From Nitrospiraceae bacterium (GTDB taxonomy: Bacteria > Nitrospirota > Nitrospiria > Nitrospirales > Nitrospiraceae), in contig SYGV01000043.1 of the NCBI GenBank assembly GCA_005799365.1, forward strand, positions 1 through 36,130: 36,130 bases of DNA, given 5' to 3'. Both the position numbers and the translations under genes were made by a program. The notes beneath the pieces are model-generated. The model was not told the origin of the DNA, did no database searches, and saw only the letters and a program-made list of their open reading frames with translations. Positions 34,808-36,130 of the stretch are shown piece after piece. Numbering within the stretch: position 1 is the stretch's first letter; each line of letters starts with the position of its first letter.

Positions 34808-35023
34808 TCATCGCGGAAGCGACAGCTGCTGATTCTCATCCTCCGGGCGGTCTTCTTCCTTCTCCGGTTCCTGGGTGGGCGCCGGTTGTTGTTTGGCCCT
34901 GACCCGCTCCCGCTCCAGCTTGGCCGCCACGCCGATGTCCTCCGGGGGAATCGGCGGTCCGACCGTCCCGCAGCCCCACAGGGTCGCGAGCCACCAGGCG
35001 CCGACCAGGAACGCGAACTTCAT
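34808..35023 (-). CDS. lptM: Small lipoprotein, LptM (YifL)-like
   Basis: A 71-residue lipoprotein: the signal peptide FAFLVGAWWLATLWGC ends in Cys18, followed by GTVGPPIPPED, the CG-x-x-GP-x-x-P motif seen in the small lipoprotein next to lysA and dapF in many Gram-negative bacteria (E. coli YifL, now LptM). LptM helps LptD folding in E. coli. The rest is a charged Pro/Glu/Lys tail. Its ATG overlaps the argH TGA (ATGA, 35023-35020), so it is coupled to argH. The call is from position and motif; short sequence limits certainty. Confidence 0.75.
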   Translation of the reverse strand: MKFAFLVGAWWLATLWGCGTVGPPIPPEDIGVAAKLERERVRAKQQPAPTQEPEKEEDRPEDENQQLSLPR

Positions 35024-35486
35024 CGCAAGGACCGCTCCCACTGCTTGATGCGGGCCGCGACCCGCTTGTGCGCGGTGCCGCCGACCTGGGCTTTCCGTTC
35101 GATGGCGCCCCTGACCGTGAGCACGGCGAGCGCGTCTTTCCCGAACCGTTCTGAAAACGTCCGCAAGTCGGCCAGGGTCAGGTCGCGCAAGTCCCGGTTG
35201 TGGTCGATGCAAGCCCGGACGACGCGGCCGGTCACGGCATGGGCCTGGCGAAACGGCAGGCCTTTCGTGACCAGATAATCGGCCAGCTCGGTCGCCAGCA
35301 AATAGCCGGAGTTGACCGACCCGGCCAGGTTCTTGCGGTTCACCGTGAGTCCCTTGAGCAGGGCGGCCAGGACCTCGACCGAGGCGGCGACCGTATCCAG
35401 CGCGTCGAACAGGGCTTCCTTGTCTTCCTGCAGATCCCGGTTGTAGCTGAGCGGCAAGCCCTTCATCGTCGTCAGCAACGCCCGCT
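35020..35486 (-). pseudogene. argH: Argininosuccinate lyase, 3' part only (5' lost at IS junction)
   Basis: About the last 155 residues of ArgH: ALLTTMKGLPLSYNRDLQED, KEALFDALDTV, VNSGYLLATELADYLVTKGL, PFRQAHAVTGRVV, and ending RIKQWERSLR. The N-terminal two thirds, including the GSSIMPQKKN signature and the catalytic His and Ser, are absent. Immediately before ALLTTMKG the sequence changes into IS66-like transposase in another frame; the shift is at about 35480-35490. The remaining frame could start at an ATG within the element (35505), giving an inactive fragment. ArgH would make arginine and fumarate. The fragment is in the same order as usual (argH-lptM-lysA-dapF). Confidence 0.85.
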
Positions 35487-36073
35487 TTGCCTCCAGCCTT
35501 CGCACATGCGGATAAATACGCTGTCAGCCATTTGCCGGTGTCCATGCCCCACAACTGTATCGTTTGGAACAGCGAGAACATCATCGCCGCCAGGCGACCA
35601 CTCCACAACGCGCCCGAGCCGTAGTAGTTTTTGCGGGCCACTACCGGACCACGCAAGCGACGCTCGGCTTCGTTGTTGTCCATCGGCACTTCGGGATTGT
35701 CCACGAACACCGTCAGGCCGGCCCAGTGATTTTGCAAGCTCGTCAATGCCTTGCGTTGCGGCGTGCGAAGCTTCGGCTCCGCCAACTCACGTTCGCAACG
35801 CTGACGCATCTGCTCGACCTGATCGCGCACCAATCCATCGGCCACGACGTAGGCCGCGGCGTCTTCCTGCACGGCCAAGCGATGATTGTTGCGCTGGTAG
35901 AGCGTGCCGATCTCTTCGACCCACTGCAACGCCCACTCGCTCAGGTCCGACCAACCGGTCAGCACGGCGAGAAAGTCGCGTCGCACATGGGCCCAGCAAA
36001 ATGCCAGGACGAGGTCGCCGGCTTTGACCTGAGCGAGCCAATCGGTTTTGTCAGATGTTTGAGCTGGATCCAT
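35487..36073 (-). pseudogene. IS66-family transposase (TnpC), C-terminal half, truncated at both ends
   Basis: About 195 residues match the C-terminal half of IS66 transposases: LVLAFCWAHVRRDFLAVLTG, WVEEIGTLYQRNNHRLA, NPEVPMDNNEAERRLRGPVV, ARKNYYGSGALWSGRLAAMM and SLFQTIQLWGMDTGKWLTAY. The late DDE-type Glu is in DNNEAERRLR. The usual protein is over 500 residues. Upstream of ATG 36073 an in-frame TAG lies 30 bp away, so the N-terminal part is missing or shifted. The C-terminus after LSACAKAGGKA is replaced by argH sequence out of frame. It cannot be a working transposase. Confidence 0.85.
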
Positions 36074-36130
36074 GAGATTACTGCTCCCGAACGTCGGGGG
36101 CTAAATCGGCACTGCCCCTGCTCCAATACC
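35487..36130 (-). mobile_element. IS66-family element, internal fragment of the transposase gene region
   Basis: The sequence from the argH junction to the right end of the window derives from an IS66-type element. No terminal inverted repeat or target duplication is seen at the argH junction, so this side is truncated, probably by deletion. CCCGAACGTCGGG (36087-36099) is a short hairpin within the part before the transposase frame. The other end is outside the window. Confidence 0.75.

Follow-up and report, generated by a model that had tools for sequence, protein, structure and literature searches.

A Truncated argH Joined to an IS66 Transposase Fragment in a Nitrospiraceae Genome Bin: Most Likely a Chimeric Contig End

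Features at the End of the Contig

The window of 36,130 nucleotides spans all of contig C13 from the Nitrospiraceae bin G000, which comprises 1,629,470 bases in 145 contigs, is 77% complete and 4% contaminated, and appears from its size, contig count, completeness and contamination to be metagenome-derived. On the minus strand, the 3' third of argH (35482 to 35020) meets a C-terminal fragment of an IS66 transposase (35483 to about 36035), and this join lies 648 bp from the end of the contig (36130). The features of this region are:

35020..35482, minus strand: 3' third of argH (argininosuccinate lyase), assigned by profile matches and by collinearity with the argH-lysA-dapF-dapA cluster of relatives
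35482..35483, no strand: argH/IS66 join, with at most 2 bp common to both sides
35483..36035, minus strand: internal and C-terminal portion of an IS66-family transposase, truncated at either side, assigned by profile and protein comparison; the limit at about 36035 is set by the end of similarity to IS66 proteins
36036..36130, no strand: terminal ~95 bp of C13, which do not align with IS66 proteins and carry a stop in the IS66 frame

In a profile search, positions 35020-35505 of the minus strand match ASL_C2 (E 1.7e-26), and the match to the argH family TIGR00838 covers positions 303-453 of 455 with 159-162 bits against a cut-off of 279.5, which is not that of a full-length argininosuccinate lyase. 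Similarity to the intact argH of relatives ends at 35482-35485, the last common stretch starting base by base at 35482; with the argH of a relative as yardstick, about 153 of about 465 codons remain, in agreement with the first-pass annotation, made from the sequence alone, in which two thirds of the gene were reported missing. Beyond argH on the minus strand come a short frame resembling a lipoprotein gene and then lysA, dapF and dapA, named from their translations rather than by family search. The 3' third of argH is genuine to this genome.

The IS66 part, read in the frame 35490-36073 of the minus strand, matches DDE_Tnp_IS66 (PF03050) at positions 144-282 of 284 (E 3.4e-25), and its match to NF033517 (129 bits, below the cut-off of 180, over positions 221-386 of 387) is that of a fragment. 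As in the IS66-family transposases described by these two profiles, the tail codes for the C-terminal portion of a DDE transposase; in contrast to a full IS66 element, it has neither the N-terminal part nor a terminal repeat at the join. IS66 insertion sequences are characterized by the accessory genes tnpA and tnpB and by a target site duplication; C13 stops at 36130, and the far flank of any insertion is absent from the assembly.

The position of the join was set from both parents, that is, the argH loci of relatives and an IS66 relative from Planctomycetia (L179). When aligned base by base, the argH side from about 35482 onward is common to nine of nine loci of relatives, and the IS66 side down to 35483 is common to L179, which is in step with C13 down to this base (87% over residues 172-194) and past it runs for about 40 further codons to its own stop. 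The IS66 copy of C13 is therefore cut inside its coding sequence, before any terminal repeat, which accounts for the absence of an inverted repeat at 35482/35483. The switch from IS66 to argH without terminal repeat, formerly located at about 35480-35490, is thus confined to 35482/35483 within the IS66 coding sequence, and the truncation of both partners is confirmed, the argH match beginning at profile position 303 and IS66 being cut about 40 codons before the stop of L179. An in-frame argH-IS66 fusion protein is ruled out, since the two reading frames differ at the join.

On the other side of the fragment, relatives carry an aspartate-containing stretch (e.g., CDRYSAYKK) before the motif CWAHVRRDF; this stretch is missing in C13, which instead has, from about 36036, ~95 bp of unrelated sequence with an in-frame stop. 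Due to this second cut at about 36035, the last 648 bases consist of at least two pieces alien to argH. The IS66 frame is open and not decayed. The GC content of the tail (0.603) is ordinary for C13, 52 of 349 windows being equal or lower, and base composition is not decisive as to the origin of the tail. A short CCCCCGA/TCGGG inverted repeat occurs within 36036-36130.

The arg-lysA Cluster in Same-Genus Genomes

Genomes of the same genus measure 3.2-3.4 Mb, so that about half of the expected genome is missing from the bin. In one of them (G003) argD, argF, argG, argH (~465 aa), the lipoprotein gene, lysA, dapF and dapA follow one another without interruption, the gene names other than argH being read from translations; this cluster also aligns with G001 and G002. 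A 4 kb contig of a genome labelled as another genus, g8 (G010:C170; L043), is 95.6% identical to G003 over its whole length and is possibly mis-binned.

According to the first-pass annotation, arginine synthesis would depend on another argH copy if the deletion were real, and a search for an intact one elsewhere in the genome had been proposed. A profile search found no second argH in the bin, but this says little because the bin amounts to 1.63 Mb against the 3.2-3.4 Mb of same-genus genomes. A match on contig C60 (69 bits, positions 73-395, in an open frame of 457 aa) lies far under the argH cut-off and was rejected as a second copy; it probably belongs to a different branch of the lyase superfamily. 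The incompleteness of the bin would account for the absence of the argH 5' part, which should be read as missing data and not as arginine auxotrophy.

Search for IS66 Copies and a Donor

At the DNA level the IS66 part matches none of 60 other relatives, G000 itself being the only positive among the 61 genomes searched, while at the protein level four of 175 genomes of the family match, G000 included, the other three at 29-34% identity. Full IS66 copies elsewhere in the genome, which had also been suggested as a check, did not emerge: the bin contains one copy of the kind found in C13 and no second one. The closest matches are fragments in one Planctomycetia bin, with 75-87% identity over short stretches; in the phylum of that bin 86 of 294 genomes match and, among the matches listed, only the fragments of that bin exceed 50% identity. 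The IS66 piece has no match in the viral collection, and its plasmid matches are all below 60% identity among the 5000 best records. A donor was hence not found in the relatives, in the phylum of the Planctomycetia bin or in the viral and plasmid collections, and the piece probably comes from another organism.

Contig C123 Across the Gap

When the G003 cluster was used as query against the bin, contig C123 was retrieved, which follows contig C3 of G003 from upstream into argD and ends at 73557 of the latter, the match of C13 resuming at 77422; the 3.9 kb in between are on no contig of the bin. At the left end of C123 (L051:1-120) the last 120 bp are no longer argD and read as alaS, with profile matches to NF002436 (E 1.6e-6) and TIGR00344 (E 4.5e-5) for alanyl-tRNA synthetase. 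This tail has no DNA match in G001, G002, G003 or G010, and shares 43% identity over 35 residues with the complete alaS that the bin itself carries on contig C8. The end of C123 appears to be a second chimeric contig end, in which a foreign alaS fragment would be attached to argD. An IS66 insertion followed by a deletion predicts IS66 or argH at this end, and the presence of alaS therefore counts against it; in particular, an IS66-mediated deletion with IS66 at both sides is ruled out.

Survey of Contig Ends in the Bin

Contig ends were surveyed in 42 of the 145 contigs (C13, C123, C100-C122 and C124-C140; those longer than 20 kb and C123 in part, two being wholly masked) with 1.51 Mb of readable G003 sequence as reference. 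Eighteen contigs had no anchor in the surveyed part of G003. Among the 42 anchored ends, 40 have at least 1000 bases of reference beyond the anchor; 34 of these 40 align to within 10 bases of the end and six bear a tail of more than 50 bases. The right end of C13 has a foreign tail of ~645 bp where the reference goes on for at least 1000 bp, which is the pattern of a chimeric end. The tails at the left end of C111 and the right end of C124 have a reference match at another place on the same contig and resemble ordinary rearrangements or indels, and the right tail of C103 starts after a stop codon.

Three ends cut a conserved gene, namely C13 (argH), C123 (argD) and C121 (rpoD). At the right end of C121 (L114:5938-6036), rpoD, which reaches position 430 of 631 of the RpoD profile, is followed by 98 bp at 21% GC that interrupt the rpoD frame with stops; this tail was compared with the 1.51 Mb of G003 and with the 42 contigs (or contig starts) of the bin. 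One other RpoD-like sigma factor of the bin, under the RpoD cut-off, is located on C123, and for this reason the case for C121 depends chiefly on how alien the composition of its tail is; the right end of C121 is a probable third chimeric end. Leaving aside C13 and C123, which were selected by the finding itself, one of 37 evaluable ends is clearly foreign (C121), C103 not being classed.

Six overlaps between contig ends were found, those of the two wholly masked contigs having been dropped from the count: three of exactly 141 bases (C104/C127, C122/C129 and C111/C139) and the others of 140, 118 and 117 bases. These lengths point to a short-read de Bruijn graph assembly with k = 141.

Origin of the argH/IS66 Join

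Starting from what is read directly in the assemblies (the join, its location where a contig ends, the cluster found intact in relatives, and a foreign tail of another kind across the gap), the argH/IS66 join is very probably a chimeric contig end, that is, an assembly error and not a real mutation. At 35482 the real chromosome would pass into the 5' part of argH and on to argG, argF and argD, as in same-genus genomes; this stretch would have been missed in the bin, probably on account of a drop in coverage, and the assembler would have added 648 bp from elsewhere, consisting of the IS66 transposase piece and ~95 bp. The added sequence would most likely derive from another member of the sampled community, and a chimeric read or graph edge may lie behind the join. 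The strongest point in favor of an artefact is the differing foreign tail on the opposite side of the gap, as two sides of one gap that end in different alien sequences are not predicted by IS66 insertion and deletion. Against it speak most strongly the ~645 bp that the tail measures and the absence of any repeat common to both sides of the join: the foreign part exceeds both k = 141 and the other tails (98 and 120 bp) and must therefore be backed by several reads, and with no repeat at the join a k-mer collision is left unexplained. The open IS66 frame, the ordinary GC content of the tail and the low number of clearly foreign ends in the survey (1 of 37) also weigh against an artefact.

The first-pass annotation had preferred a real lesion, namely an IS66 insertion after which a deletion took away one end of the element together with two thirds of argH, with misassembly as the alternative. 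Such a lesion, in which the insertion would lie in or near argH, the 5' two thirds of the gene would be lost and argG, argF and part of argD may also have been deleted, and which would make the organism an arginine auxotroph or a strain variant, is consistent with the join as seen in the assembly, with the lack of another argH in the bin and with the 3.9 kb between C123 and C13 being on no other contig; however, the bin lacks half of the expected genome in any case, foreign alaS and not IS66 or argH stands at the end of C123, the IS66 piece is truncated twice, and no copy of its kind occurs elsewhere in the bin or in the 60 relatives. The lesion is very unlikely on these grounds, and the former alternative, misassembly, is the one favored by the contig-end position, the alaS tail of C123 and the lack of another IS66 copy. 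It is likewise very unlikely that the join is real and that the lineage depends on outside arginine after the loss of argF, argG and the greater part of argH around a remnant of IS66. An older remnant, namely a broken transposase gained horizontally at argH, would leave only the end of C123 as an artefact and would agree with the open IS66 frame and with a foreign stretch longer than the other foreign tails; besides meeting the same objections as the lesion, it requires that argH was lost specifically in this lineage, which no other observation suggests, and it is extremely unlikely.

With the chimeric contig end as the preferred reading, the argH/IS66 fusion is most likely not a real feature of the genome. 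Caution is advisable in incomplete bins, where the final few hundred bases of a contig are no basis for calling gene loss or IS-mediated deletion; a cheap check is the inspection of the contig across the same gap, located via a relative, and different alien tails on the two ends of the gap indicate that the assembly is likely at fault.

Chimeric contigs of the kind proposed for C13, in which sequences of different genomes are joined in one contig, are described for metagenome assembly in a spike-in study (PMC7881036), where the truth was known from the spiked reads, whereas the error in C13 is deduced from relatives and from the partner contig. According to the same study, species of low to intermediate coverage were likelier to be found in chimeric contigs, across assemblers (PMC7881036).
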